Assembly (NCBI RefSeq): GCF_000455205.1 | Contig: NZ_AUWQ01000106.1 | Location: 1-55,863 of the forward strand | Direction of reading: 5' to 3' | DNA length: 55,863 nt | Origin: Mycobacterium sp. UM_CSW | GTDB taxonomy: Bacteria; Actinomycetota; Actinomycetes; Mycobacteriales; Mycobacteriaceae | In this document: positions 1-17,763 of the stretch, piece after piece | Layout of the letters: each line of letters opens with the position of its first letter | Position numbering within the stretch: position 1 is the stretch's first letter | Translations under genes and position numbers: made by a program | Notes under the pieces: generated by a model | The model's database searches: none | The model's input: only the letters and a program-made list of their open reading frames with translations | Told to the model about the DNA's origin: nothing

Positions 1-882
1 CGCCTCGCCGATGCTGCCGACGGTGGTGGTCACCGGCGCCAGGCCGTGCGCCACGGCCTCCAGCAGCGCCATCGGCAGGCCCTCGTCGCGGCTGGGGAGC
101 AGGAAAATGTTTGCGGCGCAGAGCAGTTCGTCGCGGGCCGGGGGTTCCAGCCAGCCGGCCACGCGAACCGTGTCGCCCACCCCCGCCGCCGCCACCGCGG
201 CGCGGACCCCGTCGACGTCGCCGTCGCCGGCCAGCGTGACCCGCAGCCGCTCGCGGACCGGCCCGTCGAGCGCGGCCACGGCCGCGACGATGTCGTAGCT
301 GCCCTTGCGCATCCCCATCCGGCCCAGCGCCACGGCGTGTATCCGGCCAACGCCCGTTTGGGCCACGGGTGTCTCCGGGATGCGAACGGCATTGTGCAGC
401 ACGCTGATTCGATCGCCGGACAGCCCCAACCGGTCCGCGTACTCGTCGACGTGACGTCGCCCCAGCACCACCCAGTGGTCGGCGACCAGGGCGCGGCGCA
501 CCGCCGCCCGCGCCGGTGCCGGCAGCCGGTCGAACCAGCCGCCGAAGTCGAAGCTGTGACCGTGTACCACCGCCGGCACGCCCGCCAGCCGCGCCGCCCA
601 CAACGGCACCACCTTGCGGACGACGCTGCCGCCGTGGGCCATGTTCACGTGCAGCACGTCGGCGCGGCGGCGAATGAGCAACCAACTGGCCCAGAGCATT
701 CCGCGCACGCCCACCAGCGGTCGCACCCATCGCGACCGGTCCACGTAGGTGGGCACGACGCTGACGCGGATCCGCTCGTCGGGATGCGCGGCCATCAGGG
801 CGGCGACCGTCGCCATGCCGCCGCGGCTACTCGCGTCCGCGGGCGCCGGCCCCACCACCAGCACCCGCACCGGCCCGCTCAC
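1..882 (-). CDS. GT4-family glycosyltransferase, 3' end cut by window edge
   Basis: Two-domain GT-B glycosyltransferase that probably adds a sugar to the lipid-linked repeat unit of the exopolysaccharide on the cytoplasmic face. The N-terminal part begins VRVLVVGPAPAD and has the Gly-rich loop SSRGGMATV near residues 18-26. The C-terminal part has the family donor-site signature: LPSRDEGLPMALLEA, with the E-x7-E spacing, then a VTTTVGSIGEA segment where the window ends. The GTG start at 882 overlaps the upstream gene's TGA by four bases (GTGA), as elsewhere in this run. 294 codons are visible; about 70-90 C-terminal residues are probably missing. Fold class is certain, donor and acceptor unknown. 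Confidence 0.88.
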   Translation of the reverse strand, partial: MSGPVRVLVVGPAPADASSRGGMATVAALMAAHPDERIRVSVVPTYVDRSRWVRPLVGVRGMLWASWLLIRRRADVLHVNMAHGGSVVRKVVPLWAARLAGVPAVVHGHSFDFGGWFDRLPAPARAAVRRALVADHWVVLGRRHVDEYADRLGLSGDRISVLHNAVRIPETPVAQTGVGRIHAVALGRMGMRKGSYDIVAAVAALDGPVRERLRVTLAGDGDVDGVRAAVAAAGVGDTVRVAGWLEPPARDELLCAANIFLLPSRDEGLPMALLEAVAHGLAPVTTTVGSIGEA

Positions 883-2357
883 CGCGTCGCCCCGGCCGGA
901 GTCAGCGGCTCGGCAGTGGTTTCGACGTCCTCGCCGGACACCCGGGACCGCTGCCACAGGCGGGCGAACGCCAGCGCCGCGCCCAGCGCCATGCCCAGCG
1001 TCATGGCGTTGGCCGGGTCCTCGGGCAGCGGGTCGACGACGCTCATCACCAGCAGGCCGGCACTGACGGCGGCGCTGGCCTTCGCGGGCGCCGATGCACT
1101 GCGCAGCGCCCGGATCAGCGGCGTGAGCGCGAACACCGCGAAGGCGGCCATGCCCACCGCGCCGGATTTCGCCAGCCACCACAGGTAGAAGTTGTGCGAA
1201 TAGGTGGTGCCCAACGTGTTGGTGAATTCGTCCGGGTCGTTGCCGAACGGCTCCTGATAGGCGTAGCCGAGGCCGTGGCCGAACACCGGCGCCTTGGCGA
1301 TGGCGCGGTTGAGGTTGGCGTCTTCGGCCAGCCTGGCCAGCGTCGAGGAGTCCACCGCCAGCGCATTGCTCGACACCCCGTCCAACACGCGGTGGCTGAA
1401 CCCGGTGATCTGATCGCCTAGCCAGTCCCCGGCGCTCGAGTGCTGCAGCAGGAACAGCGCGCCGGGCACCGCCACGGCCAGGATCCCCGCGCCGGCGATG
1501 GCCAGCCTGGCCGCCCGGCGCAGTGACGACCAGCCCAGTGTGGCGAAGAACGCCACCACCGCCGCCACCCCGAGAGCGATCAGCGTGTTGCGGGAGAAGG
1601 CCAGCACCGAGATGATCAGCGCCGGCAGGCCCAGCGCGAGATACCAGATGGGCTTGAGGCGGCCGACGATCTGGGCGGCCACCAGCGCGGCCAGCACGGC
1701 GATCGCCGGTGTCAGGGTGGCGGTGATGACGCGGTTGGCCGTGTCGCCGGTGTCGGTTTGCAGGCTTTCCAACCGCCCCGCCAGCCGCAGCCCGCCCGAG
1801 GAGCTGGCGACGGCCATGCCGGCGGAAAACCAGAGGGTGAGAACCATCGCGTGCACCGACAGCTTGACGTAGTCGCCGTACACGATCACCAGCGCCAGGA
1901 CGAAACCACCGACCACCTCGAGCAGAAAGGTGGCCTCCCGCACCACGATTGGGGCGGGGTGGCCCATTGCGAAGCCGACCGCGGCGAAGTAGGCCACCGT
2001 CAGCACGAACATCCCGGGCAGCAGGTATTCGGAGAGGCGCAGCCGCACGGCCGGCAGCACGAAGCAGATGGCCAACACCAGCGCCAGGTGATAGGCGTTG
2101 ATCGACACGGGCCCAATCACTTTGGCGACGTGCAGGCCCTGGGGCAGCGCCGCGAACGCCAGGAACAGGGCGACGCCGATCATCGTCGCGGGCCTCGTCC
2201 AGTAGATCACCAGGCAGAACGACAGGCCGATCAGCATCACGCCCTGGGTGGTGTTGCGCACGGAAAGCACGCCAAACACGAAGCACCCCAGCGCGAATGC
2301 CGTCAGCACGGCCCCGGACATCGCCAACCGGTGCCGATTGCGCAGATACAGGATCAC
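879..2357 (-). CDS. O-antigen ligase / Wzy polymerase-like membrane protein
   Basis: 492-residue polytopic protein with about 12 hydrophobic segments spread over the chain and a larger polar stretch around residues 310-385, the layout of the Wzy/O-antigen ligase (WaaL) superfamily. The polar loop contains FGHGLGYAYQEPFG and YSHNFYLWWLAKSG, which resemble the conserved 'GxG...HN.fl..l...G' region of this superfamily. Expected role: polymerising flipped repeat units on the outer face of the membrane. The start is GTG with a GTGA overlap to the co-polymerase gene upstream, and the stop overlaps the downstream glycosyltransferase. Its position among a flippase, an initiating transferase and a co-polymerase favours polymerase over ligase, but sequence alone cannot separate the two. 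Confidence 0.8.
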   Translation of the reverse strand: MILYLRNRHRLAMSGAVLTAFALGCFVFGVLSVRNTTQGVMLIGLSFCLVIYWTRPATMIGVALFLAFAALPQGLHVAKVIGPVSINAYHLALVLAICFVLPAVRLRLSEYLLPGMFVLTVAYFAAVGFAMGHPAPIVVREATFLLEVVGGFVLALVIVYGDYVKLSVHAMVLTLWFSAGMAVASSSGGLRLAGRLESLQTDTGDTANRVITATLTPAIAVLAALVAAQIVGRLKPIWYLALGLPALIISVLAFSRNTLIALGVAAVVAFFATLGWSSLRRAARLAIAGAGILAVAVPGALFLLQHSSAGDWLGDQITGFSHRVLDGVSSNALAVDSSTLARLAEDANLNRAIAKAPVFGHGLGYAYQEPFGNDPDEFTNTLGTTYSHNFYLWWLAKSGAVGMAAFAVFALTPLIRALRSASAPAKASAAVSAGLLVMSVVDPLPEDPANAMTLGMALGAALAFARLWQRSRVSGEDVETTAEPLTPAGATR

Positions 2358-3901
2358 CCCGGGCGGCCCACCTTGGTCCGGTAGGTCCGGGCCGCCGCCC
2401 GGGCGTGCCGGGGTATCCGCGCGTCGGTCAGCACGGTGCCGACGACGTCGGCGCCGGCGGCGCGCAACGCGGTGAGCGCGTCGGTGAGTTCGTCCTCGGT
2501 GGTGCGACCCGCGCGGACGACCAGGACCGTGGCCTGCGCCGCGCCGGCCAGCAGGCCGGAGTCGGCCGTCGCCAGCACCGGTGGGCCGTCGATCACCGTT
2601 CGGTCGAAGGTGGCCGACACGTCGGCCAGCACCTTGTCGAGCACCTCCGGCAGGTACGCGCTGCTGGGCAGCGTGTCCCGGCGGACGGCCCGCGCCGCCA
2701 GGATGAAAAGCCGCGGAATCGACGTCGGCTTAACGGCTTCGGCCGCGATGTCGGGGTCGGACAGCGCGTTGCCCAGGCCCTCCCCGGAGTCGACCTTCAG
2801 CAGGCCGGCGATCACCGGTCGGCGGGTGTCGCCCTCGACGAGCAGTGCCTCTTCGCCGGATTCGGCGAATGCCCGGGCCAGGTTCACCGCCGTCGTCGTG
2901 GTTCCCTCGCCGCCGAACGGCGCCGTCAGCAGCACGCGGCGCGCTCCCGGTTCGAGCGCGCGCAGCAGGCGCGCCCGCAGGCCGCGGACCGCGTCGTCGA
3001 AGGAGATGTCGGTTCCGAACCGCGGTGCGCTGCCGCGCTTTCCGGGTAGTTCGGCCAGGGTCGGCAAATTGGAGAGGCGTTCCAGTTTGGCTCGGTCACG
3101 CACCGAGCGGTCGGCGGCCTCGCGGGTCAGCGCCGCCCCGGTGCCCAGCAGCAAGCCGGCGGCCAGGCCCATGGCCATGTTGCGCACCGGCACCGGTTTG
3201 ATGGGGCTGTCCGGCACGCCGGGCTGCTCGACGATTGTGGCCCGGGCGATCGGCATGTTCGGGGCGAGGGGCTGGGGCGGCGTCGCCGCGGGCTGCGCAG
3301 GCTGCGGCACGACCGAGGGTTCGGCCGACGGGGTGGCCTCGGCGCCCGTTTGCGTCGCCGGCTGGCCGTCGGTGTCCTGCGCGGCGGGCGCCGACGGCGC
3401 GGGCGTCTGCGCCGGCGGCGCCTGCGGCGGTGAGCTGTTCACCAGCGCCACCGGGTCCTTCGGGTTCACACCGAGGGTGCCGACGAGCCCGGTGAACGTG
3501 TCCGCCATCGCCTTCGCCAGTGTCGCGGCACGATTCGGGTCGGTGTCGGTGACCGAGATGGTGAACAGAGTCGACTTCGGCGTGTACTCCACGTGGGTCG
3601 CGCTCGCCAGGGCGTCCGCGCCGATGGGCAGGTGAAACTGCTTGACCGCGCGCTCCGCGACCGCGTGGCCGCCGGCGATCGCGGCGTACGACGACAACCG
3701 CTCCTGCGCGGCCTGCGTGCCCTGATACACCTGGGCCAGGTCGGTCTCGCCCGAGAACGAGATGAGGACGGTGGCCGACGACTGATAACTCTTCGTCTGG
3801 AACGCGGTGACGGCCGCGGCCCCGGCGAGGCAGGCCAGCAGCGCCCCGGCGAACAGCTTCCAGTGGGCCGTCAAGGTTCGGACAAACGTGCGAAAATCCA
3901 T
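2354..3901 (-). CDS. Wzz-type polysaccharide co-polymerase fused to an altered BY-kinase-like domain
   Basis: 515-residue chain-length regulator. TM1 lies at about residues 16-34 and TM2 at about 242-258, with an extracytoplasmic Wzz region between. The motif before TM2 (EQPGVPDSPIKP) matches the usual Pro-rich signature. Residues about 156-216 form a long Pro/Ala/Gln-rich linker. The cytoplasmic part (about 265-515) is a MinD-like P-loop domain of the bacterial tyrosine (BY) kinase type. Its Walker A reads APFGGEGTTTTA, with Thr334 (codon at 2902-2900) where BY-kinases have the catalytic Lys of GK[ST]. Walker A' reads VEGDTRRP (Glu for the first Asp), and Walker B is VIDGPP (Asp438). There is no C-terminal tyrosine cluster, only one Tyr near the end. 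Probably a co-polymerase with little or no kinase activity. It starts three bases after the previous gene. Confidence 0.85.
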   Translation of the reverse strand: MDFRTFVRTLTAHWKLFAGALLACLAGAAAVTAFQTKSYQSSATVLISFSGETDLAQVYQGTQAAQERLSSYAAIAGGHAVAERAVKQFHLPIGADALASATHVEYTPKSTLFTISVTDTDPNRAATLAKAMADTFTGLVGTLGVNPKDPVALVNSSPPQAPPAQTPAPSAPAAQDTDGQPATQTGAEATPSAEPSVVPQPAQPAATPPQPLAPNMPIARATIVEQPGVPDSPIKPVPVRNMAMGLAAGLLLGTGAALTREAADRSVRDRAKLERLSNLPTLAELPGKRGSAPRFGTDISFDDAVRGLRARLLRALEPGARRVLLTAPFGGEGTTTTAVNLARAFAESGEEALLVEGDTRRPVIAGLLKVDSGEGLGNALSDPDIAAEAVKPTSIPRLFILAARAVRRDTLPSSAYLPEVLDKVLADVSATFDRTVIDGPPVLATADSGLLAGAAQATVLVVRAGRTTEDELTDALTALRAAGADVVGTVLTDARIPRHARAAARTYRTKVGRPG

Positions 3902-3904
3902 CGG

Positions 3905-5020
3905 CTAAAACCTTTCCCGGCGCCTGCCGGCGCTCTCGAGCTCACGCGCGCCGTGCGGCGGGTGCGTGACCAAGACCTCTGTGAGGATATCCAGCATGCG
4001 GTCGGCGACCCGGTCGACGCTGAAGCGCTCCGCGTAGTGGTGCGCCGCCTCGGCGCCGAGGCGCGCGGCGGTGGCCGGGTCCGCCAGCCTGTCGAACGCT
4101 GCGGCCAGCCCCGCGACGTCGTCGACGTCGACCGTCGGACCGCCCGGCGGCTGGTATTCCGGCAGCCCGCCGATGGTGGAGACGATCGGCATCACGCCCA
4201 GCTGCATCGACAGCACCTGCACCCCGCTCTGCGAGGCGCGCCGGTAGTGGGCGACCGAACCCTTTGCGGCCGAGAGCGTCTCGACGACATCGGCGTAGCG
4301 GTACGTGCCGGAGCACCACCGCGCGTGTTGCGGCAGCGACGCGGTTCGCAGGGCAATCGGTCCGTCGCCGATCAGCACCAGGTCGTCGCCGCGCCAGCCG
4401 TCGCCGGTCACGTGCCGTTGCCAGGCCCGCAGCACCACGTCGATGTTCTTGTACGGGTTGAGCCGGCCCACCATCACGAAATCGCGGCGCCCCTCGGCGT
4501 GGACCGGCGCCGGCACCAGGTCGACGTCGAGGTCGCTGGTGAGCGGCAACGTGTGCACGGGCGTCCGGGCGACGTCTCGCCGGGTGCTGATGGCTTCCGC
4601 GACGTAGTCGCTGTAGGTGACCGTGGCCGCCGAGCGGGCGCCCCAGCGGTCGAACACCGCACGCTCGTAGCCCGGCCGCGCTTCGCCGGCGTCGTGCGGG
4701 CTATCGTCGTGGACCAGCTGCACCCGGGGCACACCGCCGGCCAATGCCATCCAGCGTGGATCGCGGACCAGCTCGGTGATCACCACCTGCGGCCGGTAGT
4801 CGCGGATGCGCCGCCAGGCGGCGAAACTCGACGGCCAGCTCGCGGCCGCCCGGAACCGCGGGTCGAGCACCAGCTCGTAGTCGCGGGCGGCGTCCGACTC
4901 AGGGTGCTGGTCGGACGTCACCAGCAGCACGTCGGCTCCGCGCCGCCGCAGCGCCTCGACCTGGACGCGCGCGAGCGGCCGCATCCACGGCGAAAGCCAA
5001 AGCACCCGAATGGGATTCAT
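3905..5020 (-). CDS. GT4-like glycosyltransferase
   Basis: 371-residue GT-B glycosyltransferase. The N-terminal domain begins IRVLWLSPWMRPLARVQVEAL. The C-terminal domain starts at the hinge with FVMVGRLNPYKNIDVVLRAW, continues through DLVLIGDGPI, and has the donor region GVQVLSMQLGVMPIVSTIGG, where the usual E-x7-E is weak (SGVQVLSMQLGV). It probably transfers one sugar of the repeat unit. The ATG at 5020 overlaps the upstream stop codon by four bases. An open frame continues upstream in the same phase, but that part is antisense-like, Arg-rich sequence overlapping the methyltransferase gene, so the internal ATG is used. Confidence 0.82.
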   Translation of the reverse strand: MNPIRVLWLSPWMRPLARVQVEALRRRGADVLLVTSDQHPESDAARDYELVLDPRFRAAASWPSSFAAWRRIRDYRPQVVITELVRDPRWMALAGGVPRVQLVHDDSPHDAGEARPGYERAVFDRWGARSAATVTYSDYVAEAISTRRDVARTPVHTLPLTSDLDVDLVPAPVHAEGRRDFVMVGRLNPYKNIDVVLRAWQRHVTGDGWRGDDLVLIGDGPIALRTASLPQHARWCSGTYRYADVVETLSAAKGSVAHYRRASQSGVQVLSMQLGVMPIVSTIGGLPEYQPPGGPTVDVDDVAGLAAAFDRLADPATAARLGAEAAHHYAERFSVDRVADRMLDILTEVLVTHPPHGARELESAGRRRERF

Positions 5021-6114
5021 AGCAACACCCGGTCCCTGACCGCGCCGGGGTCGATCGACCAGCGCCCCTCCAGTTGCGGGTAGGCCCGCCGCACCTCGTC
5101 GTACAGGTCCGGCAACGTCAGCATGACGCGATCGGGGTCGGCCGCGATGAGCTGTTCGGGCGAGATGATGCCGACGTCGGTGCCGGGAATCCGGCGTCCC
5201 TGCTTCGCCGGTGACGCGTCGGCGACGGCCCGCAACAGTTGCCGGTCGACGCCGGCGATGTTGAACAAGGCGGAGACGCGCGAGCCGGCGCCGTAGCCGT
5301 ACACCGTGCGCCGGTCGTTCGCCTGCTCCCGCAGCCAGTCGCGCAACTGGGTGGCGTGGCGCTCGGCGTCGCGCTGCAGACCGCCGACGACAGCGGCGTC
5401 GGTGGTGCCGGCGCTTTGCTCGCGCCGCAGGATTTCCCCGGTGCGTTCGTCGGGGTCGACAAGGCCGTGCACGGCGGCAACCAGTACGGTGCCGCCGTAG
5501 AGATCGAACTCCCACGCCGAGGCCACGCTCATGCCGACCGCGGCGAGCAGACCGGTCAATGCCGTCAGCGAATAATAGGCGTAGTGGCTGTGGCGCAACG
5601 CATCCCATTGCCCCTGGGTCACGATCGTCAACAGCGAGTGGAATTGCAGCAGCAGCACGCCGTCGGGCGAGGTGGCCTCCGCGCGGAGTCGGAAGGCCCG
5701 CCGTTGGTCCGGCTCGTGCATGATGCCGAACGAGTCGAGCACGACGTCGGCCCGTTCCGCCTCGGCGAAACCGCGCTCCGCCAGCAGCGGCAACCAGGTT
5801 CCGCCGTGCGGGCTGCCGAATTCCCGTGCGGTGGCGCCGCGCAGCCAGCCCGCGTCGGCGACGCGCCGAACGGCCTCGGCCGCCTGGTCGCGCAGGGCCT
5901 GCGGCTCGATGCCGCGCGGCTCGGCGGCGGCGGTGTCGTCGTCGGCGAGTTGGGCCAGTCCGCAGCGGCCGCAGAGTTCCATCGCGAGCGGATGCGACGA
6001 TTCCTCGGGGCGCACGGGTTCGGCGACCGGCGGGAAGTCGTCGCCGGCCGGCACGGTCCCCAGGTCGAGGACCCGTCGCAGATCGGTGCCGCCGCACCCC
6101 CGGCAGGTCCTCAT
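5017..6114 (-). CDS. C-methyltransferase-family protein with degenerate SAM site
   Basis: 365-residue protein with the three-part layout of sugar C-methyltransferases (TylC3/NovU type): N-terminal zinc-finger-like domain with C4, C7, C48 and C51, central methyltransferase region, and C-terminal domain (YGYGAGSRVSALFNIAG, then a P-V-x-S-like region). Compared with its neighbour at 6111-7352, the central domain is damaged. The motif I position reads REFGSPHGGTW instead of VVEVASNDGYL, about 25 residues carrying the SAM-ribose acidic residue are missing, and the catalytic HEH is HSH (residues 175-177). The frame is intact with normal codon use, so it is a maintained protein, perhaps a non-catalytic partner or an enzyme with changed chemistry. 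ATG start with ATGA overlap. Confidence 0.72.
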   Translation of the reverse strand: MRTCRGCGGTDLRRVLDLGTVPAGDDFPPVAEPVRPEESSHPLAMELCGRCGLAQLADDDTAAAEPRGIEPQALRDQAAEAVRRVADAGWLRGATAREFGSPHGGTWLPLLAERGFAEAERADVVLDSFGIMHEPDQRRAFRLRAEATSPDGVLLLQFHSLLTIVTQGQWDALRHSHYAYYSLTALTGLLAAVGMSVASAWEFDLYGGTVLVAAVHGLVDPDERTGEILRREQSAGTTDAAVVGGLQRDAERHATQLRDWLREQANDRRTVYGYGAGSRVSALFNIAGVDRQLLRAVADASPAKQGRRIPGTDVGIISPEQLIAADPDRVMLTLPDLYDEVRRAYPQLEGRWSIDPGAVRDRVLL

Positions 6115-7352
6115 CGGCGCACGCTACCAATTTCCGCGGTGTGCAGGGTCGGAAGCGGAAAGACGAGCCGGCCGCCCCACTCGGCGACGTAGTGAAGCTG
6201 CTCGGTCAGCTCCGCCTCGAGGTTCCACGGCAACACCAGCACCACATCCGGGCGGTCCTCGGCGATGCGTTCGGGTTCGTAGATCGGGATCCGGGTCCCC
6301 GGGGTGAAGCGCCCGTGCTTGTACGGGTTGCGGTCGACGGTGTATTCGAGGAGGTCGGTTCGGATCCCGCAATAGTTGAGCAGGGTGTTGCCCTTGCCCG
6401 GCGCGCCGTAGCCGACGACGCGCTTGCCGTCGGCGCGGCAATCCAGCAGGAAGCGCAGCAGGTCGTGCCGGATCGCCTCGGCGCGGGGACGCAGCTGCAG
6501 GTAGCCGTCGGCACGGTGCAGACCCGCGGCTTCTTCGGCGCGCATCACCCTCTCTACCCGTTCGGTCGGCCGCGAGGCGATATCCGCCGAGCGGGCCCAG
6601 ATGCGCATCGACCCGCCGTGGGTGGGCAGCAGCTCGACGTCGACCACGGCGAGCCCGGAGGTGGCCAGCGCGCAGATCGCCGAGAACAGGGTGTAGTACT
6701 GGAAGTGCTCGTGGTAAATCGTGTCAAACTGCCCCAGCCGCACCAGGTTCAGCGCGTGGTGTACTTCGATGCTCAGCCAGCCGTCGTCGTCCATCAGCTT
6801 GCGCAGCGAGCGGGTGAAGCCGCGCAGATCGGGGATGTGCGCGTAGACGTTGTTGGCGACGACGAGGTCGGCGGGCCCGTGCTCCTCACGAACCTGGGTC
6901 GCCGTGTTCTCGTCCAGAAACGCTGTCAGCGTGGGGATGTTGCGCGCGCGGGCGGCGGCGCCGACGTTCTCGGACGGCTCGATTCCCAGGCATGGCACGC
7001 CCGCCGCGACGACGTGCTGCAGCAGGTAGCCGTCATTGCTGGCGACCTCGACCACCCGCGAATCCGGGCCAAGGTCGAGGCGCTGGACGGCTTCGTCGAC
7101 GAAGCGCTTGGCGTGCTGCACCCAGCTGTCCGAATACGAAGCGAAGTAGGCGTATTCGGTGAAGGTGTCCTCGGGCGTGATCAGCGCCGGTATCTGCAGC
7201 AGCAGACAGTCCTCGCACAACCGCAGGTGCAGCGGGAAGGTCTGCTCCGCAAAGTCGAGTTCCTCGGCGGTGAGGAATTTCTCGCACGGCGGAGTGGCGC
7301 CCAGGTCCACGACGCTGAGCAGGCGCTCCGAGTCACACAACCGGCAAAGCAT
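6111..7352 (-). CDS. SAM-dependent sugar C-methyltransferase (TylC3/NovU/EryBIII-like)
   Basis: 413 residues, the usual length for this family, which methylates a ring carbon of 4-keto sugar nucleotides. The N-terminal zinc-binding domain shows C3, C6, C46 and C49. SAM motif I is VVEVASNDGYL (residues 100-110), followed by the acidic end of the next strand in GIEPS. The catalytic segment is YHEHFQYYTL (HEH at 214-216), and the C-terminal Rossmann-like domain has VVGYGAPGKGNTLLNYCG. All signature parts are present, so activity is expected. The substrate is probably a nucleotide-linked deoxy sugar made by the cassette at 14.7-17.8 kb. It overlaps the flavoprotein gene upstream by 20 bases. Confidence 0.88.
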   Translation of the reverse strand: MLCRLCDSERLLSVVDLGATPPCEKFLTAEELDFAEQTFPLHLRLCEDCLLLQIPALITPEDTFTEYAYFASYSDSWVQHAKRFVDEAVQRLDLGPDSRVVEVASNDGYLLQHVVAAGVPCLGIEPSENVGAAARARNIPTLTAFLDENTATQVREEHGPADLVVANNVYAHIPDLRGFTRSLRKLMDDDGWLSIEVHHALNLVRLGQFDTIYHEHFQYYTLFSAICALATSGLAVVDVELLPTHGGSMRIWARSADIASRPTERVERVMRAEEAAGLHRADGYLQLRPRAEAIRHDLLRFLLDCRADGKRVVGYGAPGKGNTLLNYCGIRTDLLEYTVDRNPYKHGRFTPGTRIPIYEPERIAEDRPDVVLVLPWNLEAELTEQLHYVAEWGGRLVFPLPTLHTAEIGSVRR

Positions 7353-8784
7353 ATGGCTCCCAATTCTCTGTGCGGCTGGATGTTTGGGCGGGTTCGATGT
7401 TCAAGGCCAGGCGTTGCGCCCGCCGGCGGGTGCTGTCGTGAATGAGCTTGCCCAGGCCGTTCTGGTAAAGCCAGAGGCTGTTCTGCTGGCCGGAGAAGGA
7501 CTCTTCGCCGGCCATCGCGCCCCAGGGCAAAAACCCGCTGCCCAGCCCCACCCCGAAGACCCCCGCGATCGGCGTGCCGTACCGGTCCAACAGCCGCGCG
7601 TGCGTGTCGACCGCGGGGCCGTTGTGCGCCAACGAGACTCGCGTCCCGCGCGCGTTGTAAATGGGCGGTGCCGCAAGGCGGTAGCCCAGGGCCGGAATGA
7701 TCAGATCGCAGTCGGTCAGCAGGCCGAGCAGGTCCGCGCGGGACAGGCCGCCGATCGGCATGGCCACCGCGCGGTCGTCCGGCTCGGCCCCAGGCTTGCG
7801 ATGCATACGCCGCCACACTTCGCGGCCGTCGCCCTGCAACCCACCCAGCCGATGCACGCGCCCGGTGGCCGCGCACACGTCGGACTCGGAGAATTCGTAG
7901 AAGTCGACGTGGGCCGCGGCACGCGACGCATAAGTGGGCCGGGGTTCGCTGCGATGCAGGATTTGGACGCCGCGGGGACCGAAGCTCAGCCCCGGAATCT
8001 GTTCCAGCAGCATCCATGCCGCCGAAAATGCGCTGTGCGCCCCGCCCAGGATGACCACGCGCGGGCTGCCGTGCACGCGGGCCAGCCGTCGCGCCACCTC
8101 CTGCGCGCCGCCTCGGCTGAGGAGCCGGTGGCTGGACACGATCTTCTCGCGCCAGTCCCCGAGGTGGACGCCGGGCGTGACCTCGATCTCGGACCAGGAC
8201 GCGTTCGGCCGCCCGCCGATCGCGACGACCGCGCTGGCGGCGCGGACCAGCGTGCGCCGCCCGTCGGCGTCGGCGGTGAACACCGCGACCGAGCCGTCAT
8301 CCTGCAGCCGGATCGCCTCGGCGCGTGTGCCGGTGAAGGCGCGGCTGTTCGGATGCCGGTCGAACTCGGCCAGAATGGCGCTACCCAGGCGCCGCTCGAA
8401 GCGATCGACCAGCTCCAGCGTGGGATGCGTGGCCCGGAAGCGTTCCAGTTCTTGCGCAACGGGATCGGCCCCGACGCCGGCCAGCAACGGGGAGCAATCC
8501 GGGCCGTCCAGGCACTCCAGGAAGGAGGTGCCGCGCGAGTCGGCGTTGAGGGCGTATCGGCCGAGCGTCCCGCCCAGCTCGTCGGTCTGCTCCACCAACG
8601 CGACGCCGCCGTCCAGCCACGCGCCCAACCGACCGTGACGTGCCGCCCAGACCAGCGCTCCAGTCCCGGCCGGCCCACCGCCCAGGATCGCCGTTTCGTA
8701 CCACGGAGTCGGTTCGATGACGTCCGTCCGTTCGCGACGCCTGGTGCGGCGGGCCGATTTCCAGTTCCGCCCCAACGCGCTCAC
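7333..8784 (-). CDS. FAD/NAD(P)-dependent oxidoreductase of unassigned role
   Basis: 483-residue two-dinucleotide-fold flavoprotein. The FAD site AILGGGPAGTGALVWAARHG lies near the N-terminus. A second nucleotide fold, RVVILGGAHSAFSAAWML, lies mid-protein. A C-terminal FAD-contact segment contains GIAGVFGVGLGSGFLPWG. The layout resembles N-hydroxylating or Baeyer-Villiger class B monooxygenases and pyridine-nucleotide oxidoreductases, but I cannot place it in a family. GTG at 8784 is chosen because it makes a GTGA overlap with the upstream glycosyltransferase; codons further upstream are Arg-rich antisense to that gene. Its place inside a glycan operon suggests oxidation of a sugar or sugar amine, which is inference only. 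Confidence 0.75.
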   Translation of the reverse strand: MSALGRNWKSARRTRRRERTDVIEPTPWYETAILGGGPAGTGALVWAARHGRLGAWLDGGVALVEQTDELGGTLGRYALNADSRGTSFLECLDGPDCSPLLAGVGADPVAQELERFRATHPTLELVDRFERRLGSAILAEFDRHPNSRAFTGTRAEAIRLQDDGSVAVFTADADGRRTLVRAASAVVAIGGRPNASWSEIEVTPGVHLGDWREKIVSSHRLLSRGGAQEVARRLARVHGSPRVVILGGAHSAFSAAWMLLEQIPGLSFGPRGVQILHRSEPRPTYASRAAAHVDFYEFSESDVCAATGRVHRLGGLQGDGREVWRRMHRKPGAEPDDRAVAMPIGGLSRADLLGLLTDCDLIIPALGYRLAAPPIYNARGTRVSLAHNGPAVDTHARLLDRYGTPIAGVFGVGLGSGFLPWGAMAGEESFSGQQNSLWLYQNGLGKLIHDSTRRRAQRLALNIEPAQTSSRTENWEPYALPVV

Positions 8785-10799: not shown

Positions 10800-12274
10800 G
10801 CGACCACCGACCTGTGGCGCAGCGCGGCCAGTGACGACCAGCCGAACGGCCCGACCGCCGCGCTGGTGGCCAGGTACGCGGCGGCCGCGGCGGCCACCGT
10901 CAGGGCGACGTGGTGGCCCGAAAGCAGCAGTGCCACCGCGACACTGGCCGCCGTGGGGACCAGCAGCCGGAGCAGGAAAACCACCGGCGTGCGGTAGTCG
11001 CACTCGCGGCGCAGCCACCAGGTGGCCAGCACCATGCCGAACAGCTCGGTGCCCACCAACGCCAGGCCGGCGCCCACCGCGCCGAACGGCGCGTCCAGGA
11101 TTACGTTCAGCACGACATTGAACGCCAGCGTCGCGATCGACAACCGGAACAGGAACTTCTGCTGATGGCAGGCGAACAGCCCCTGGCCCAGGGTGCCGGT
11201 GACGAAACGCAAGGCCACCGCGACGAATAGCGTCGCCAGCGTCGGCGCGCCGCGTTCGACGAACTCGCGGTCGCCGAACAACTCGATCAGGGGCCGGGCC
11301 AGCAACGTGCCGATGACGGCGACCGGGACCCCCACGAAGTACATCAGCTCGACGCAGCGGCGCAGGAACTTGGCGAACGCGGCGACGTCGCGGGAAAACA
11401 GTTCGGTGGCCGTCGACAGCGTCGCCTTGAGGAAGAACATCGACACGATCAGCGTGTTGAACGCCACGGTGTAGGCCAACCCGTAGACGCCGACCTCCGA
11501 ATGCGTGCTCACCTTCGACAGGATGACGCCGTCGGTGCGCCAGTACAGGACGCCGACGACGGCCACACCGATCGGAAATGCGCTCTCCCGCAACAGGTCC
11601 GCGATCTCGCGTGGCGCGAAGATCGGCCGCAAGGAGATGTGCCGGGCCGCCGCGGTGCCCTGGATCAGCAGCTGCAGCGCCGGCGGTATCAGCTGCGCGA
11701 CCGCGAACCAGACGACGTCGGCCCGTTCGGCCACCAGGTAGCTGACCATCGCCAGCGTGCCCAGCCGGCCCAGCACGTCGGACATCGCCACGGCCGAGAA
11801 GCGGACGGTGGACAGGAACACCGGCTCGAACCGCGTCGTCATCGTCAGCATCAGCAGCTGGCCCGACAACACCACGAGCATCACCCGCACGTCGGCGTCA
11901 CGGTAGAGCAGCAGACCCGAACCCGCCGCCAGTGCCGCGAGCGGCAGGCAGTACATCAGCGAAAGTCCGCTGTTGATGCGGACGAGCCGCTCCAGGTCGC
12001 CCGTCCCGGAGGTCACCCGGCGCACGATGACGGTGCCGATGCCGAGATCGGCCAGGCTGGCCCACATTCCGACGAAGGCGACCGCGATCGTGAGCTGGCC
12101 GTAGCGCCCGGGCCCGAGGTAGTGGGCCGTCATCGCCACCGAGACGACCGAGGCCAGCATCCCCAGCGCCCGGCAGACGAGCTGGACGGAGAACGCGTGC
12201 GCGATCCGCGACCGCGGCACCGACCCTGCCGCCGGCGCCACCGGGGCCGGCTCGATCGTGGTGTCGTGCGCCAT
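10796..12274 (-). CDS. Polysaccharide flippase (Wzx/MOP superfamily)
   Basis: 492-residue polytopic protein with about 12-14 membrane segments and the sequence character of the MOP/Wzx family: an N-terminal helix with GMLASVVSVAMTAHYLGPGRYGQL and a DLGIGTVIVRR motif after TM2. Expected role: flipping the undecaprenyl/decaprenyl-linked repeat unit from the cytoplasmic to the outer face. The start ATG (12274) overlaps the initiating transferase stop and the stop overlaps the GT2-GT4 start, so it is translationally coupled on both sides. Assignment to the superfamily is firm; the transported glycan is unknown. Confidence 0.88.
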   Translation of the reverse strand: MAHDTTIEPAPVAPAAGSVPRSRIAHAFSVQLVCRALGMLASVVSVAMTAHYLGPGRYGQLTIAVAFVGMWASLADLGIGTVIVRRVTSGTGDLERLVRINSGLSLMYCLPLAALAAGSGLLLYRDADVRVMLVVLSGQLLMLTMTTRFEPVFLSTVRFSAVAMSDVLGRLGTLAMVSYLVAERADVVWFAVAQLIPPALQLLIQGTAAARHISLRPIFAPREIADLLRESAFPIGVAVVGVLYWRTDGVILSKVSTHSEVGVYGLAYTVAFNTLIVSMFFLKATLSTATELFSRDVAAFAKFLRRCVELMYFVGVPVAVIGTLLARPLIELFGDREFVERGAPTLATLFVAVALRFVTGTLGQGLFACHQQKFLFRLSIATLAFNVVLNVILDAPFGAVGAGLALVGTELFGMVLATWWLRRECDYRTPVVFLLRLLVPTAASVAVALLLSGHHVALTVAAAAAAYLATSAAVGPFGWSSLAALRHRSVVA

Positions 12275-13779
12275 CAGTACGCCCCGTCGCTACTCAGCAC
12301 GGCCTTGAGCGTCCGCGCGATGATCAGCAGGTCGCCCGTCATCGACCAGTTGTCGACATACGACAGGTCGAGCCGCACCGAGTCCTCCCACGAGAGGTCC
12401 GACCGGCCGCTGACTTGCCACAGCCCGGTCACGCCCGGCTTCACCAGCAGGCGGCGCTTGACCTCGCCGTCGTAGTTCTCGACCTCGCGCCGCAGCGGCG
12501 GCCGCGGTCCGACGACGCTCATGTCCTGCTTGAGCACGTTGATGAACTGTGGCAACTCGTCGATGCTGAACCGGCGCAGTACCTTTCCGATGGGCGTCAC
12601 CCGCGGGTCCTGGCGGATCTTGAAGAGCATGCCGCCGGCGCCCTCGTTGAGCGGCATCAGCCGTTCGACCTGGGTGTCGGCGCCATCCACCATGGTGCGG
12701 AACTTGAACATCGTGAAGGGCTTGCCGTCCAGGCCGATGCGCTCCGCCCGGTAGAAGACCGGCCCCCTGCTCGTCGCCTTGATGCCGATGGCGGCGGCGA
12801 CGAGCAGCGGCGACGTCGCGACGAGCGCGGCCAGGGCGAAGCAGAAGTCGAAGGCGCGCTTCTGAAACCGTTGGGTCCCTTCGTATTGCGGCTTGTCGAC
12901 ATGCAGCAGGGGGAATCCCGCGATCGGCTTGAGGGTCAGGCGCGCCCCGGCGACGTCCACCACCCCGGGCGCCACCACCAGGTCGACGTCCATCGTCTCC
13001 AACCGCCACATCAGGTCCCGGATCCCGTGCACGCCGAAGTGCTCGGTGCGCGTCACCGCCACCGTGTCGGCGCCACAGCCGGCGATGGCGGATACCGCGG
13101 TGGTTTCGTCCCCGAGGATCGCGATCTTGCGGCCCTGGACCGTCAGCACCTCGCCGCGCGGCGGGCCGTAGCCCGCGATGCAGACGCCGACCACCAGATA
13201 GCCGTCGTTCGGGTTGCGGATCAGCTCGTGGGCGAGGTGCGAAACGCCCGGGCGATCCCCGATCGCCAATACCAGCGATTGGTATTGCCCTTGCGCCCGT
13301 TTGCGCCAGACGTGCTTGCGCCACAGGTTGCGGCTCGCCAGCAACCCGAGGGTGCCCACGGGGAGCGCGACCGCCAGATAGCCGCGGGCCAGTTCGATCT
13401 TGGCCAGCAGCGTGACGATGGCGATGAACCCGAACGTCCAGAACGAGGCGCTGGCGATGCGCCGGTATTCGTCGATTCCTGCGCCGATGATCCGGGTGGA
13501 CCGGGTTTGGAACATCGACATCGACGAAAGCCATAGCGCGGCAAAGAGAACCGAGAACAGCGTCATGACGGGCCCTGGGTACCCGGACGTGTTCGGCGAG
13601 TCCCCGAACCGGACAAACTGGGCGAGCGCGACGGCGGCGCAGACGATCATCGAGTCGGTGACGCGCAGGCGAGCCGAGTACCGCTGCTGCCAACGGGCAA
13701 CGGCCTTGGCGCCGACCCGCGGCGCGGGCAGCACCGCAAGCGGTGCCGGGCCGGTGTCGGCTGGAAGCGTGGTCGTCAT
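12274..13779 (-). CDS. Exopolysaccharide initiating polyprenyl-phosphate sugar-phosphotransferase (WbaP/WcaJ type)
   Basis: 501 residues. The N-terminal half has four predicted membrane helices followed by a Rossmann-like cytosolic domain (GVCIAGYGPPRGEVL region), as in PglC/WbaP long forms. The C-terminal catalytic domain starts KRAFDFCFALAALVATSPLL and carries FKFRTM, the DPRVTPIGKVLRRFSIDELPQ block, MSVVGPRPP, and the VKPGVTGLWQVSGRSDLSW block, all hallmarks of bacterial sugar transferases. It moves a sugar-1-phosphate from a nucleotide sugar to polyprenyl phosphate, the first committed step of the repeat unit. ATG 13779 is used because upstream in-phase sequence is antisense to the WecG-type gene. 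Confidence 0.92.
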   Translation of the reverse strand: MTTTLPADTGPAPLAVLPAPRVGAKAVARWQQRYSARLRVTDSMIVCAAVALAQFVRFGDSPNTSGYPGPVMTLFSVLFAALWLSSMSMFQTRSTRIIGAGIDEYRRIASASFWTFGFIAIVTLLAKIELARGYLAVALPVGTLGLLASRNLWRKHVWRKRAQGQYQSLVLAIGDRPGVSHLAHELIRNPNDGYLVVGVCIAGYGPPRGEVLTVQGRKIAILGDETTAVSAIAGCGADTVAVTRTEHFGVHGIRDLMWRLETMDVDLVVAPGVVDVAGARLTLKPIAGFPLLHVDKPQYEGTQRFQKRAFDFCFALAALVATSPLLVAAAIGIKATSRGPVFYRAERIGLDGKPFTMFKFRTMVDGADTQVERLMPLNEGAGGMLFKIRQDPRVTPIGKVLRRFSIDELPQFINVLKQDMSVVGPRPPLRREVENYDGEVKRRLLVKPGVTGLWQVSGRSDLSWEDSVRLDLSYVDNWSMTGDLLIIARTLKAVLSSDGAY

Positions 13780-13796: not shown

Positions 13797-14642
13797 TTAC
13801 GCCGTCACCGATTGCGCCGCGGCGACGAGGGTTTCGGTGTTTTCGGTGGTTGGCATCCCCGCGTAGTACACGCCGGGATAACAGATCAGCTGGGCCCGCG
13901 ATGCGCGCAGCAAGGCCAGCGGCCCCTGCAACAGATACCGGCGGGCCAGGCGCTGGGGCTCGCGGGTCAACCGGTAGAACCATTCCAGGCCCGCTCGCTG
14001 CATCCAGTCCGGCGCCCGGCTGGTCATGCCGGACAGGAAGTCGATGGCGCCACCGCACGGCAGGAAAACCTTTGCGCCCGTGGCGAATCCGTGCCGGTCC
14101 ACCCACTGCTCCTGGCGTGGCTTGCCGAGGCTGACCACCAGGATGTCGGTACTCGCCGCGCGGATATCGGCGGCCAGGGCGTCGGAGTCCGATTCGATGT
14201 CGGCCGGGTCGGGCGCCCACATGCCCGATACCACCAGCGCGGGATAGTGCGCCCGCAGGCGCTGCGCCAACAGCCGATGGGTCTGGGCGCTGCCGCCGAA
14301 GAAGCCGACCCGCTGACCCGTCGACTCGGCCAACGCCAACACGGCGGGCAGCAAGTCGGCCCCGGTCACGCGCGGCCACGGCTTTGCGGTCAGCAGTTGC
14401 CCCCGCCACGCGATGGGCATGCCGTCGGCCAGCAGCAGCCATTCCAGCCGGCTCGCGGGCGTCGCGCCAAGCGAGCGAAAGTGGTGGAGGTGATCCAGGT
14501 TCACCGAGCCCACCGCCAGCCCGCCCGCCCGCGAGCGCAGGCGGGCCGAGATGATGGACAGCACCTGGTCGGTGTCGCAGCGTTCGACGACGCTCCCGCT
14601 GACGACCATGCGCACCGGGGCTGCTGAGGATTCGTGGCCCAT
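13797..14642 (-). CDS. WecG/TagA/CpsF-family glycosyltransferase (GT26)
   Basis: 281-residue cytosolic enzyme, typical length for GT26. Recognisable blocks: a VNLDHLHHFRS segment matching the family's 'tpN...v..a...' region, LLLADGMPIAW, RVTGADLLPAVL, GFFGGSAQTHRLLAQRL, and the C-terminal ILVVSLGKPRQEQWV and LPCGGAIDFLSG blocks. Family members (ManNAc or GlcA transferases) usually attach the second sugar to the lipid-linked primer, which fits its place 17 bases upstream of the initiating transferase. A 42-base gap separates it from the epimerase gene. Confidence 0.9.
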   Translation of the reverse strand: MGHESSAAPVRMVVSGSVVERCDTDQVLSIISARLRSRAGGLAVGSVNLDHLHHFRSLGATPASRLEWLLLADGMPIAWRGQLLTAKPWPRVTGADLLPAVLALAESTGQRVGFFGGSAQTHRLLAQRLRAHYPALVVSGMWAPDPADIESDSDALAADIRAASTDILVVSLGKPRQEQWVDRHGFATGAKVFLPCGGAIDFLSGMTSRAPDWMQRAGLEWFYRLTREPQRLARRYLLQGPLALLRASRAQLICYPGVYYAGMPTTENTETLVAAAQSVTA

Positions 14643-14684: not shown

Positions 14685-15242
14685 TCATGACGCCTCGCTC
14701 TCGGCCGCCGCCGGCTCATCCATAAAGGGCCAGCTGGCGTCCTTCTCCGACATGACGGTCACCGGCAGCGGCCATTTGATGGCGAATTCGGTTTCGTCCC
14801 AGCGGAATCCCTCTTCGCTTTCGGGCACATAGGGTCCGCTGACCTGGTACATGACCTCGGTGTCGTCGGTCAGCGTCTGGAAGCCGTGCAAGACGTAGGG
14901 CGGCAGGAACAGCGCGCGGCGGTTCTCCGCGGTCAACTCGACCATCACGTGCTTGCCGTAGGTCTGCGATTCCGGCCTGATGTCGACGGCGACGTCGGCG
15001 ATCGCCCCGCGCACGCAACGCACCAGTTTCGCCTCGGCGTGCGGGGGCGCCTGCCGGTGCAGGCCGCGCACCGTCCCCCGGGTGTAGTTGAAGCAGAGGT
15101 TGGTTTGTGCCACTTCGGAAATGAGCCCGTAGGTGAGGAATTCGTCGGCGCAGAAGGATCGAGAGAAGAAGCCGCGATGGTCGCGATGGGGTTCGATGTC
15201 GATGATCGTCACCCCGGCAACAGCCGTGGGCGTGTACTTCAC
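14685..15242 (-). CDS. dTDP-4-dehydrorhamnose 3,5-epimerase-like cupin (RmlC/NovW/StrM type)
   Basis: 185-residue cupin, the normal length of RmlC. Visible motifs: HRDHRGFFSRSF at the N-terminus, RGTVRGLHRQ with the conserved catalytic-region His, KLVRCVRGAIADVAVDIR, and FLPPYVLHGFQTL. It epimerises C3 and/or C5 of a 4-keto-6-deoxy sugar nucleotide. The core actinobacterial rml genes are not nearby, so this is an accessory paralogue serving the exopolysaccharide. GTG at 15242 gives a GTGA overlap with the SDR gene. Whether it is a 3,5-, 3- or 5-epimerase cannot be read from the sequence. Confidence 0.86.
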   Translation of the reverse strand: MKYTPTAVAGVTIIDIEPHRDHRGFFSRSFCADEFLTYGLISEVAQTNLCFNYTRGTVRGLHRQAPPHAEAKLVRCVRGAIADVAVDIRPESQTYGKHVMVELTAENRRALFLPPYVLHGFQTLTDDTEVMYQVSGPYVPESEEGFRWDETEFAIKWPLPVTVMSEKDASWPFMDEPAAAESEAS

Positions 15243-16285
15243 TGCGTCTCCTTCCAGAACAGTCGCTGGTCGACCTGCCCGGTCTTGAGCAGGTATTCGA
15301 TCTGCTTCAGGCGGGTGTGCCCGCGGCCGTGGAATGTCTCGGGATCCATTGCGATGGTTTGGAAGACGCGATGCAGTTGCGCCGCCCCGGCCGCGACGTC
15401 CCACTCGGCGCGGAAGTCGGGGAAGACCGCACGGATCTTGCCGAACGCCACCCGGTAGCTGCGGTTGTCCGCGTTGGGCGGGCCGAAAGTGAGTTCGCAG
15501 CCGGGGAACTCGGCGCTGACGGTCTCCGCGATTTCGCGCACCGTGCGGTTGTTTTCGTCGCTGCCGACGTTGACCACGAGTTTGTGCACGGTCTGCCGGT
15601 CGGCGCGCAGCGCGCACCGGATGGCCTGAGCGATGTCGAGGGCATGCACCAGCGGCCGCCACGGGGTGCCGTCGCTGGTCATCGCGATGCGATGTTCGGT
15701 CCAGGCGTAACCCGCCAGGTTGTTCAGCACGATGTCGAAGCGCATGCGGGGCGAGGCGCCGAATGCCGTTGCGTTGCGCAGGAATGCCGGCGAGAAGTCG
15801 TCGTCGGCCATCGCGGTGAGGTCCCGTTCGACCAGGGCCTTGCACTTGGCGTACGGGGTCAGCGGGTTGATGGGGCTGGTCTCATCGACCGTCCCGTCGG
15901 CGATCCCGTACACACTGCACGACGACATGTAGACGAACCGGCCGACGCCGGCGCGCTTGGCGCACTCTGCCAAATGCACGCTGCCGCGGTGGTTTACCTC
16001 GTACGTGACGTCCCCGATCAGGTCGCCGATCGGATCGTTGCTCAGCTCCGCCATGTGCACGATCGCGTCGAACCCGCGCAGGTCCGCGACGGTCACGTCG
16101 CGAATGTCCTTGATGAGGGTCAGCGCCGCCACCGGGTGGGCACTGCCGGCGAGCGGGCCCGGGCACAGCCAACCGGCCCGGTAGTAGCCGGTGTCCAAAC
16201 CGACGACGTCGTGACCGTCCTCGAGGAGCAGCGGCGCCAGGAGGCAACCGAGATAGCCCTCCGTGCCGGTGATCAGCACTCGCAT
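15239..16285 (-). CDS. NAD-dependent epimerase/dehydratase (extended SDR) for a sugar nucleotide
   Basis: 348-residue extended SDR. The Rossmann motif is LITGTEGYLG, with the acidic ribose contact in VVGLDTGYYRAG. The catalytic triad elements are MSSCSVYG and TPYAKCK (Tyr-x3-Lys). The C-terminal half has an RPLVHALDIAQAI block typical of nucleotide-sugar epimerases and reductases. It acts on the sugar nucleotide made by the gene at 16,969-17,763, as 4-epimerase, 4-ketoreductase or dehydratase; which one cannot be decided. ATG start, 24 bases after the deacetylase gene; its stop overlaps the RmlC-like GTG. Confidence 0.84.
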   Translation of the reverse strand: MRVLITGTEGYLGCLLAPLLLEDGHDVVGLDTGYYRAGWLCPGPLAGSAHPVAALTLIKDIRDVTVADLRGFDAIVHMAELSNDPIGDLIGDVTYEVNHRGSVHLAECAKRAGVGRFVYMSSCSVYGIADGTVDETSPINPLTPYAKCKALVERDLTAMADDDFSPAFLRNATAFGASPRMRFDIVLNNLAGYAWTEHRIAMTSDGTPWRPLVHALDIAQAIRCALRADRQTVHKLVVNVGSDENNRTVREIAETVSAEFPGCELTFGPPNADNRSYRVAFGKIRAVFPDFRAEWDVAAGAAQLHRVFQTIAMDPETFHGRGHTRLKQIEYLLKTGQVDQRLFWKETQ

Positions 16286-16309
16286 GGTGTCATCCCTCCC
16301 GTCGAAAGA

Positions 16310-16972
16310 TCAGTTGTCGAAATGAGCGTCGAAGGGGCTGATGACCGCCTTCTCGCCCACAAAGGCTTCGGCGTAGCGCGCCCGGCACTGGACGCCCCGG
16401 ACCCGCATCAGGCCGAGGAACGCCTCGTCGTCGAACCAGTCGCGGCCCGATTGCGACGGGTACGACTGCGCGAGCAGCTGCGCCTTCTGGTGGGCGATCT
16501 CCGTCGGGATGCCCACGTAGAGAGTGGGATTCGGCAAGTCGGACTCCCATTTGAGAATCTCGTAGCCCAGCACCAACTGCGCACGGAACTCGGTCGGGAT
16601 GAGCTCGGCGACCAAGCGATGGTCCTGGTGGTAGTCGTGGCGGTGCGGACCGATCACCAGATCGGGCTGGCATTCGCGGCGGAACTGGGCAAGCTCGCGC
16701 TTCACCGCTCCCCAGTGGCCCGGCAGCTGACCGTCGGGCAGGTCGGCCACGGTCAACCGGACCTCCGAGCGCGGGAACAGCGCCGCGAAGGCGTTCTTTT
16801 CCTCTATCTCGCGTTCGGTGCCGGCGCCGGTGAGCACCAGGGCGTGCACGACGACACCCGGGTTGTGGCGGGCGATCTGCAACAGCGTCGCACCCGCACC
16901 GATGACGATGTCGTCACAGTGCGCGCCGATGACGGCAATCGAGTCGATTGCGCCGGTGTTCAGCTGGATCAT
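16310..16972 (-). CDS. PIG-L/LmbE-family deacetylase
   Basis: 220-residue zinc-dependent N-deacetylase. Metal and catalytic residues sit in the N-terminal GAHCDDIVIGAG (a variant of AHPDDE) and in GPHRHDYHQDHR, which supplies the His/Asp pair. In mycobacteria the family includes MshB and Mca; here the operon context points to removal of an acetyl group from an N-acetylated sugar intermediate. I use ATG 16972 because it overlaps the upstream stop (ATGA) like its neighbours; a GTG at 17002 would add ten residues. Confidence 0.85.
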   Translation of the reverse strand: MIQLNTGAIDSIAVIGAHCDDIVIGAGATLLQIARHNPGVVVHALVLTGAGTEREIEEKNAFAALFPRSEVRLTVADLPDGQLPGHWGAVKRELAQFRRECQPDLVIGPHRHDYHQDHRLVAELIPTEFRAQLVLGYEILKWESDLPNPTLYVGIPTEIAHQKAQLLAQSYPSQSGRDWFDDEAFLGLMRVRGVQCRARYAEAFVGEKAVISPFDAHFDN

Positions 16973-17763
16973 GCCGAACGTCTCGCAGGAGCCTGCTCCC
17001 ACACCATCCAGGGGCGGTTTCCGGTGTTGTAGTCGGCGTCGAGTTCGGCGCGTTCCTTGAACGTGTCGGCCGGTTTCCAGAAGCCGTCGTGCTGGTAGCC
17101 GAGGAGCCGGCCGGTCCCGGCGAGCGCCATGCAGGCATCGCCGACGAGGTCGCCGTTCTCCGGAATGAGGTCGAAGACCTCCTGGGTCAATACGAAGTAG
17201 CCCCCGTTCACCCAGATCGGGAATTTGGCGATCGGAGCGATCTCCTTGATGTCACCGCCGGCGGTGACGTCGACGCAGTGGAAGGACGACTGGGGTGGCA
17301 CGATCAGCATTGATGCGGCGGCGCCGCTCGTCTTGAGCCGGTCGATCATGGTGTCGAGCGGCGCGTCGGTCAGCACGTCGGCGTAGTTGGCCAGGAAGTA
17401 TTCGTCGTTCCCGAGGTACTTGCGCACCCGCCGCAGCCGCTCGCCGATCGGCGACTCCAGCCCGGTGTCGACGAAGGTGATGCTCCAGTCGGACATGTCG
17501 GAATCGAGCAGCTCGATGTGACCGGCGCGCATGACGAAGTCGTTGGACTCCATCTCGCGGTAGTTAAGGAAGAAGTCCTTGACCATGGCCTGCCCGTAGC
17601 CCAGGCACAGGATGAACTCCTTGTGCCCGAAGTGGGCGTAGTAGCGCATGACATGCCACAGCAGCGGTCGGGGTCCGACCATCTGCAGCGGCTTGGGAAC
17701 CTGGTCGCCCTCGGCGGTCCGCATTCGCATGCCGTAACCGCCACAGAAGAGCACGACTTTCAT
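16969..17763 (-). CDS. Sugar-1-phosphate nucleotidyltransferase, closest in look to glucose-1-phosphate cytidylyltransferase (RfbF)
   Basis: 264 residues. The N-terminal signature VVLFCGGYGMRMR is a variant of the L-x-GG-x-G-T-R-L loop (Met for Thr), followed by VPKPLQMVG. The stretch LLWHVMRYYAHFGHKEF and the following CLGYGQAMVKDFF are very like RfbF-type CDP-glucose synthases and less like RmlA. It activates a hexose-1-phosphate as a nucleotide sugar, the entry step for the modification cassette. It is the first gene of the run. ATG 17763 is preferred over ATG 17772 because the Shine-Dalgarno-like AAGGG lies 9 bases before 17763 but touches 17772. No matching CDP-glucose 4,6-dehydratase is in the window. 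Confidence 0.8.
   Translation of the reverse strand: MKVVLFCGGYGMRMRTAEGDQVPKPLQMVGPRPLLWHVMRYYAHFGHKEFILCLGYGQAMVKDFFLNYREMESNDFVMRAGHIELLDSDMSDWSITFVDTGLESPIGERLRRVRKYLGNDEYFLANYADVLTDAPLDTMIDRLKTSGAAASMLIVPPQSSFHCVDVTAGGDIKEIAPIAKFPIWVNGGYFVLTQEVFDLIPENGDLVGDACMALAGTGRLLGYQHDGFWKPADTFKERAELDADYNTGNRPWMVWEQAPARRSA

Follow-up and report, generated by a model that had tools for sequence, protein, structure and literature searches.

How polysaccharides pass the mycobacterial outer membrane, and what most PPE proteins do, is to our knowledge not known. PPE proteins have been detected in this outer membrane, or mycomembrane (PMC10597459), a channel function there is described for PPE64 (PMC12802285), and PPE10 and ESX-5 affect capsule integrity (PMC4900558). 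Here, we analyzed a 55,863-bp stretch of Mycobacterium sp. UM_CSW (“the window”, i.e., contig NZ_AUWQ01000106.1, C106 in our numbering), in which a gene for a PPE-SVP protein heads a run of exopolysaccharide (EPS) genes. As in Wzx/Wzy-dependent capsule and EPS pathways, a single run of genes encodes an initiating transferase, a sugar cassette, glycosyltransferases, Wzx, a Wzy-type protein, and Wzz; unlike in these pathways, no Wza/OPX gene was found with it, the kinase-like domain of its Wzz lacks the P-loop lysine, and 58 of 64 carriers have a PPE gene heading the run. The PPE resembles PE/PPE proteins such as PPE10, PPE15, PPE51, and PPE64 in its PPE domain and SVP C-terminus, with a PE gene upstream in 15 loci, but differs from them in belonging to an orthologous clade of its own that is linked with polysaccharide genes and, in the window, in standing alone. 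Judged from titles and abstract openings, none of the literature matches listed reported a mycobacterial Wzx/Wzy locus or a PPE within one. A group of PPE orthologues that is linked to polysaccharide genes would offer a single gene handle on both glycan export and PPE function.

In the window, the PPE gene lies 76 bp upstream of rfbF on the same strand. We tabulated this linkage in 64 genomes, i.e., 63 carriers besides the window plus genome G244: in 56 of these, a PPE gene stood directly upstream of the first EPS gene and on its strand, 40–769 bp away (median 108 bp, measured between alignment ends), and the gene that followed was rmlC in 28, rfbF in 18, wecG in nine, and pgpt in one. The 58 Wzy carriers with a PPE include, beyond the carriers among these 56, the window, G048 (where the PPE is alone on its own contig), and G051 (where it lies 3.2 kb before wecG, on the same contig and strand); the copy in G076 is broken. 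The PPE was still first in ten carriers in which tetR1 is missing from the piece and the module lies away from metS (G057, G074, G091, G097, G158, G165, G219, G222, G230, and G237). Of the 184 Wzy-less genomes, 23 were selected for a high rank by metS or for a lipoprotein copy, and none of these 23 has a PPE beside metS (the stretch from G139 spans only 1.4 kb), although nine retain tetR2. A PE gene followed by a PPE gene is the usual layout of PE/PPE pairs; a PE-like gene, 65–75% identical to our PE query, stood just before the PPE in 15 loci, while none was found upstream of it in the window.

The locus PPEs also form a group of their own. In a first tree, 54 of them made up one clade against 28 paralogues of the window genome (support 98/86), with locus PPEs of <365 or ≥460 residues or cut by an end, and paralogues of <280 residues, left out. 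In a second tree, 25 of these 54 and the PPE of G244 again formed one clade (support 100/98), set against 21 of those 28 paralogues together with the top-scoring PPE from each of 18 genomes (G030 and 17 that lack the Wzy). Across 30 chosen genomes, the best PPE scored 341–616 bits in four linked carriers and at most 257 bits elsewhere, except for G244 with 305 bits. G244, at first counted as a non-carrier, has its PPE before rmlC and an initiating transferase (70%), followed further on by a nonribosomal peptide synthetase-like protein, a GH71 glycosidase, a GDP-mannose dehydratase, a GT4 glycosyltransferase, and a Wzz-like protein just under cut-off; this divergent, PPE-headed polysaccharide locus lies at G244:C1:1620000-1659999 (L336, L337). 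The best PPE of G058 (53%), considered as a counter-example, was rejected, as it sits right behind a PE-like open reading frame (ORF) and outside the clade; the 20-kb stretch taken there contained no initiating-transferase match, with two rfbF-like genes (36%) at distances of ~9 and 16 kb. Among solved structures, the best match of the window PPE was PPE15 (5xfs).

Used as a probe at E 1e-80, the PPE matched in 85 of 396 genomes: 56 Wzy carriers, G244, and 28 others. With scoring limited to four candidates in each genome, this search passed over G076 and G097, two genomes with a PPE in the linkage table. In 27 of the 28 other genomes, which were outside the earlier set, rfbF, rmlC, wecG, or pgpt lay immediately downstream of the PPE on the same strand, and in the 28th the contig ends 130 bp after the PPE; hence, all 27 testable cases lead to the locus. 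The idea that the PPE is a chance neighbor was rejected, as genomes beyond the initial set show the linkage too. Position, phylogeny, and prediction thus support a candidate dedicated PE/PPE partner at the head of a Wzx/Wzy locus, which is new with respect to an earlier note made from the letters of this DNA. That note held that export through the mycomembrane would need an unknown partner, and closed the locus at position 17763; the run instead continues upstream into the PPE gene, so that a specific candidate for this partner (a PE-PPE in 15 loci), presumably acting at the mycomembrane, lies just beyond the limit drawn then.

The same note stated that no Wza-like gene is present, and this stood up to a search of the whole window genome, in which Poly_export (PF02563) had no match at E 0.001 while the same search was positive in four of 14 control genomes. 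In the Wzz, the P-loop of the kinase-like domain reads GEGTTT in the window, and the lysine of this motif is missing in all 70 readable loci out of 72; therefore, control of chain length may not run via tyrosine autophosphorylation.

We then considered how far the locus is spread. The closest relative met was G051, with a Wzy 98% identical, followed by M. paraense and M. interjectum with 90–92%. At E 0.001, the window Wzy had matches in 68 of the 248 genomes of the genus, or 64 after removal of the weak matches in G157, G172, G181, and G196 (30–38% identity, G181 being a fragment at E 6e-4), and WecG matched 90 of 248, many of them only distantly. Of 298 genomes drawn from across the order, 11 had a match to a Wzy profile (E 1e-10); these were all from this genus, and none was from the 75 others among the 76 genera sampled. 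A scan of named genomes yielded 76 loci, including those of M. gordonae, M. asiaticum, M. scrofulaceum, M. colombiense, M. gastri, M. triplex, and M. genavense. Wzx, the glycosyltransferases, Wzz, and Wzy recur among relatives while the sugar cassette varies, and the opening genes differ by group: rfbF-pigL-epimerase-rmlC-wecG, rfbF-pigL-wecG, rmlC, wecG, or none before the initiating transferase. As judged from sequence comparison, the locus is a widespread and variable, serotype-like one, by which the surface would vary in many species of mycobacteria. Profile search and synteny mapping across mycobacterial genomes, the check proposed for the earlier note, thus bear out a locus recurring with its content kept. 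Family matches and this kept content uphold the Wzx/Wzy assignment behind the note's claim that the strain makes a further repeat-unit heteropolysaccharide; the polymer itself remains a conjecture, and with Wzy in 64 of 248 genus members the locus is no peculiarity of one strain. A plasmid-borne locus was rejected, with one match to Wzy among 72,556 plasmid records, at 37% in Tsukamurella. This sole record, an O-antigen ligase family protein, is on NZ_LR134456.1 at 53364-54566.

At its far end, the locus encodes a lipoprotein (562 aa in M. paraense, cut in the window genome on contig C118), whose predicted structure, compared using VIA-align 2, has a glycosidase-like (beta/alpha)8 fold. In such glycoside hydrolases, a pair of catalytic acidic residues follows strands 4 and 7; in the lipoprotein, E214 is kept in 39 of 39 sequences and E352 in 37 of 39, and the model places both at, or close to, the end of a strand (the strand numbering is our own reading). 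DUF4832 (PF16116) matched below its gathering cut-off of 29.2 bits, with 18.8 and 23.4 bits in two relatives and 26.3 bits in the window genome, and in none of the 14 control genomes, while sequences of solved structures gave three weak matches (best E 0.006). As with PslG, PelA, and BcsZ of EPS operons, a glycosidase-like envelope protein would belong to an EPS locus, although this one is a DUF4832-like barrel below the Pfam cut-off and of another family. The locus lipoprotein shares 64% identity with a 36-residue peptide of M. tuberculosis Rv1006 (PMC8006519), the comparison covering this peptide only. Rv1006, a pseudogene in M. leprae, stands without the locus, whereas the related lipoprotein here belongs to it, and this orphan probably originated as an EPS glycosidase. 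It adjoins Rv1007, and in M. avium subsp. paratuberculosis the PPE gene MAP0966c, which M. tuberculosis lacks, lies between the two (PMC1660551); MAP0966c is probably an orthologue of the locus PPE. BCG_1063, the bacille Calmette-Guérin (BCG) counterpart of Rv1006, is reportedly required for the bacteria to persist in the lymph nodes of cattle (PMC6540422). Beside the locus lipoprotein lies a GAF-GGDEF-EAL protein (G000:C118, L193, 1512-3419), which makes a link between cyclic di-GMP (c-di-GMP) and the polymer possible. The window genome has a second such protein at G000:C11:32515-34344, which shares 58% identity with the M. paraense query, and in G079 an ORF of 1302 aa with two GGDEF stretches and an EAL domain (L195:3211-7119) stands beside a lipoprotein-wzz-wzy run.

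The reading that we favor, and hold to be probable if far from certain, is that the locus makes a Wzx/Wzy repeat-unit surface polysaccharide and that its PPE works at the mycomembrane, as export channel or anchor. The initiating transferase would put the first sugar on the polyprenyl carrier, and the glycosyltransferases would extend the unit, one sugar of which is probably C-methylated (Methyltransf_13/14 exceed their Pfam gathering cut-offs in two window proteins). Wzx would then flip the unit, and Wzy and a Wzz devoid of the kinase P-loop lysine would polymerize it outside the plasma membrane. In PPE-rich mycobacteria, the dedicated PE/PPE pair at the head of the run (in the window, the PPE alone) would be made together with the polymer enzymes; by analogy, type VII secretion (probably ESX-5) would take the PPE to the mycomembrane, where it would serve the polymer as export channel or surface anchor. 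On the evidence of its model, the far-end lipoprotein may be a surface glycosidase trimming or releasing the polymer, with the GGDEF-EAL protein beside it as a possible c-di-GMP input. In a more far-reaching version, which we regard as conceivable but rather doubtful, a type-VII-secreted PE/PPE replaced Wza, so that the PPE clade forms or opens a polysaccharide route across the mycomembrane, and Rv1006 is the remnant of a lost copy of the locus; if the PPE were such a route, it would provide a genetic handle on mycobacterial glycan export.

Several observations weigh against the favored reading. We know of no PPE channel that passes polysaccharide, and the PPE channels described in the sources consulted take up small molecules. 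Six carriers lack the PPE, namely G079, G081, G162, G202, G089, and G030. The first four have one PPE match each genome-wide (E 1e-20) and none in their locus stretches (the locus head of G081 was not identified), so that a polymer, if made there, would exit without it. The locus is decayed in G089, and in G030, a metagenome-assembled genome with 39 PPE matches, an acyltransferase and a WXG100 gene (of the ESX substrate type; L210:12193-13856) take the place of the PPE. By raw identity, the G244 PPE is nearest to that of G058 (55%), which is not beside such a locus, and enters the clade by the tree only. The probe test was new for at most 16 of its 28 genomes, the Wzy of at least 12 (including those of G463 and G479) having already been met; among the new genomes, 15 were testable and all 15 lead to the locus. 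PPE distances correlate with those of pgpt (r 0.84), and equally with those of the TetR genes (0.83–0.85), so that this distance-correlation (mirror-tree) test is not specific to the PPE–EPS pairing. A single-sequence structure model of the PPE was too poor for use (predicted local distance difference test, pLDDT, 41). Finally, the lipoprotein is missing from G202, G162, and loci L113 and L114, and Rv1006 is listed as a horizontally acquired “Glycosyl transferase” (PMC3087520), unlike our hydrolase reading.

Some of these points would suit a PPE that holds and organizes the finished polymer at the surface, with export left to a general route through the envelope that other capsular glycans also take. 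The four carriers with a single PPE match have the locus without a PPE, and PPE10 offers a precedent in its effect on the capsule (PMC4900558); nothing specific speaks against this alternative, and linkage to EPS genes fits an anchor and a channel alike, yet we give it only tentative credence. Block inheritance or movement could also have kept at the head of the run an old PPE insertion with another role, such as nutrient uptake or immune contact, and the PPE, EPS, and TetR genes are indeed all strongly co-inherited; PPE genes adjoin many unrelated genes in mycobacteria. This appears unlikely, however, as the PPE keeps its leading place and its strand whichever of four genes comes next, also away from metS, precedes the divergent locus of G244, and is not found beside metS in the 23 Wzy-less genomes, nine of them with tetR2. 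A last alternative concerns the product: PF04932 is named for O-antigen ligase and covers both ligases and polymerases, and the polymerase model TIGR04370 gives the window Wzy 18.3 bits, far under its cut-off of 40, such that the protein might be a ligase moving a short glycan to lipid or protein, and the locus a source of lipid-linked oligosaccharide or glycoconjugate. We consider this quite improbable, since its immediate neighbor, both in the window and in relatives, is a Wzz (PF02706), which like the glycosidase-like lipoprotein fits a long polymer better than a short glycan.

For the favored reading of a Wzx/Wzy polysaccharide locus with a PPE partner, the layout of the window is given in the table below, with families called in window proteins by Pfam gathering and NCBIfam cut-offs; G+C at codon position 3 was highest in the frames chosen. 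The initiating transferase, WecG, Wzx, Wzy, Wzz, glycosyltransferases, and sugar cassette that the earlier note had placed in one minus-strand run are present at 1-17772, most over curated cut-offs. The locus is not quite “complete-looking”, as contig C106 ends at position 1, inside a GT4 gene.

Features of the EPS locus and its head in the window (scores in bits, or E-value where so written).
Feature	Position	Strand	Family evidence and remarks
GT4 glycosyltransferase, 3' end cut by contig end	1..882	-	PF13692/PF00534
Wzy-type polymerase (O-antigen ligase/polymerase family)	879..2357	-	PF04932 Wzy_C 44.9 (cut-off 31.7)
Wzz co-polymerase fused to kinase-like domain	2354..3901	-	PF02706 31.0 (cut-off 25.5); TIGR01007 97.5, below cut-off 108
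GT4 glycosyltransferase	3905..5020	-	PF13439/PF13692
C-methyltransferase-like protein	5017..6114	-	PF08484 84.9; PF08421 43.6
C-methyltransferase	6111..7352	-	PF08484 211.5
FAD/NAD(P)-dependent oxidoreductase, weak match	7333..8718	-	PF12831 23.5, below both Pfam cut-offs
GT2-GT4 fused glycosyltransferase, start approximate	8781..10799	-	PF00534 93.4; PF13641 37.6
Wzx-type flippase	10796..12274	-	PF13440 (Polysacc_synt_3) 55.2 (cut-off 23); PF01943 50.8, over cut-off
Initiating polyprenyl glycosylphosphotransferase	12274..13779	-	PF02397 Bac_transf 222.5 (cut-off 27); TIGR03025 412 (cut-off 295.55)
WecG/TagA/CpsF glycosyltransferase	13797..14642	-	PF03808 170.6 (cut-off 27.4)
RmlC-type 3,5-epimerase	14685..15242	-	TIGR01221 163.6, over cut-off; Pfam 200.6 (cut-off 27)
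NAD-dependent epimerase/dehydratase	15239..16285	-	PF01370 135.4 (cut-off 20.9)
PIG-L/LmbE-type deacetylase, start approximate	16310..16966	-	PF02585 55.5 (cut-off 28.2)
RfbF-like sugar-1-phosphate nucleotidylyltransferase	16969..17772	-	TIGR02623 E-value 2.5e-56; 191, below cut-off 300
PPE-SVP protein at head of run	17849..19078	-	PF00823 208 and PF12484 48.1, both over cut-off
TetR regulator 1, divergent from PPE, start approximate	19603..20280	+	PF00440 46.1; order kept in relatives
TetR regulator 2	20314..21141	+	PF00440 57.4
PAS-domain protein, start approximate	21230..21700	-	PF13426/PF08448

By comparison with complete relatives, synteny places the remainder of the locus at the start of contig C118, to which C106 would be joined. 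This contig begins with the cut lipoprotein, the GAF-GGDEF-EAL protein, an FkbM methyltransferase, a pyridine-nucleotide oxidoreductase, a sigma factor, and pabB, and in complete relatives of the window type, e.g., M. paraense (L122, L123), the whole locus spans from metS to pabB. Relatives of TetR regulator 2 and the PAS-domain protein adjoin the locus in G079 and G202 (L194, L196) as well, where they stand before rfbF and far from metS, in genomes that each have a single PPE match; between rmlC and wecG of G079 lies a DRL-type oxidoreductase, and the G079 stretch gave no initiating-transferase match. To the right of metS, the 23.4-55.8 kb part of the window contains a tRNA-Gln at 39283-39355.

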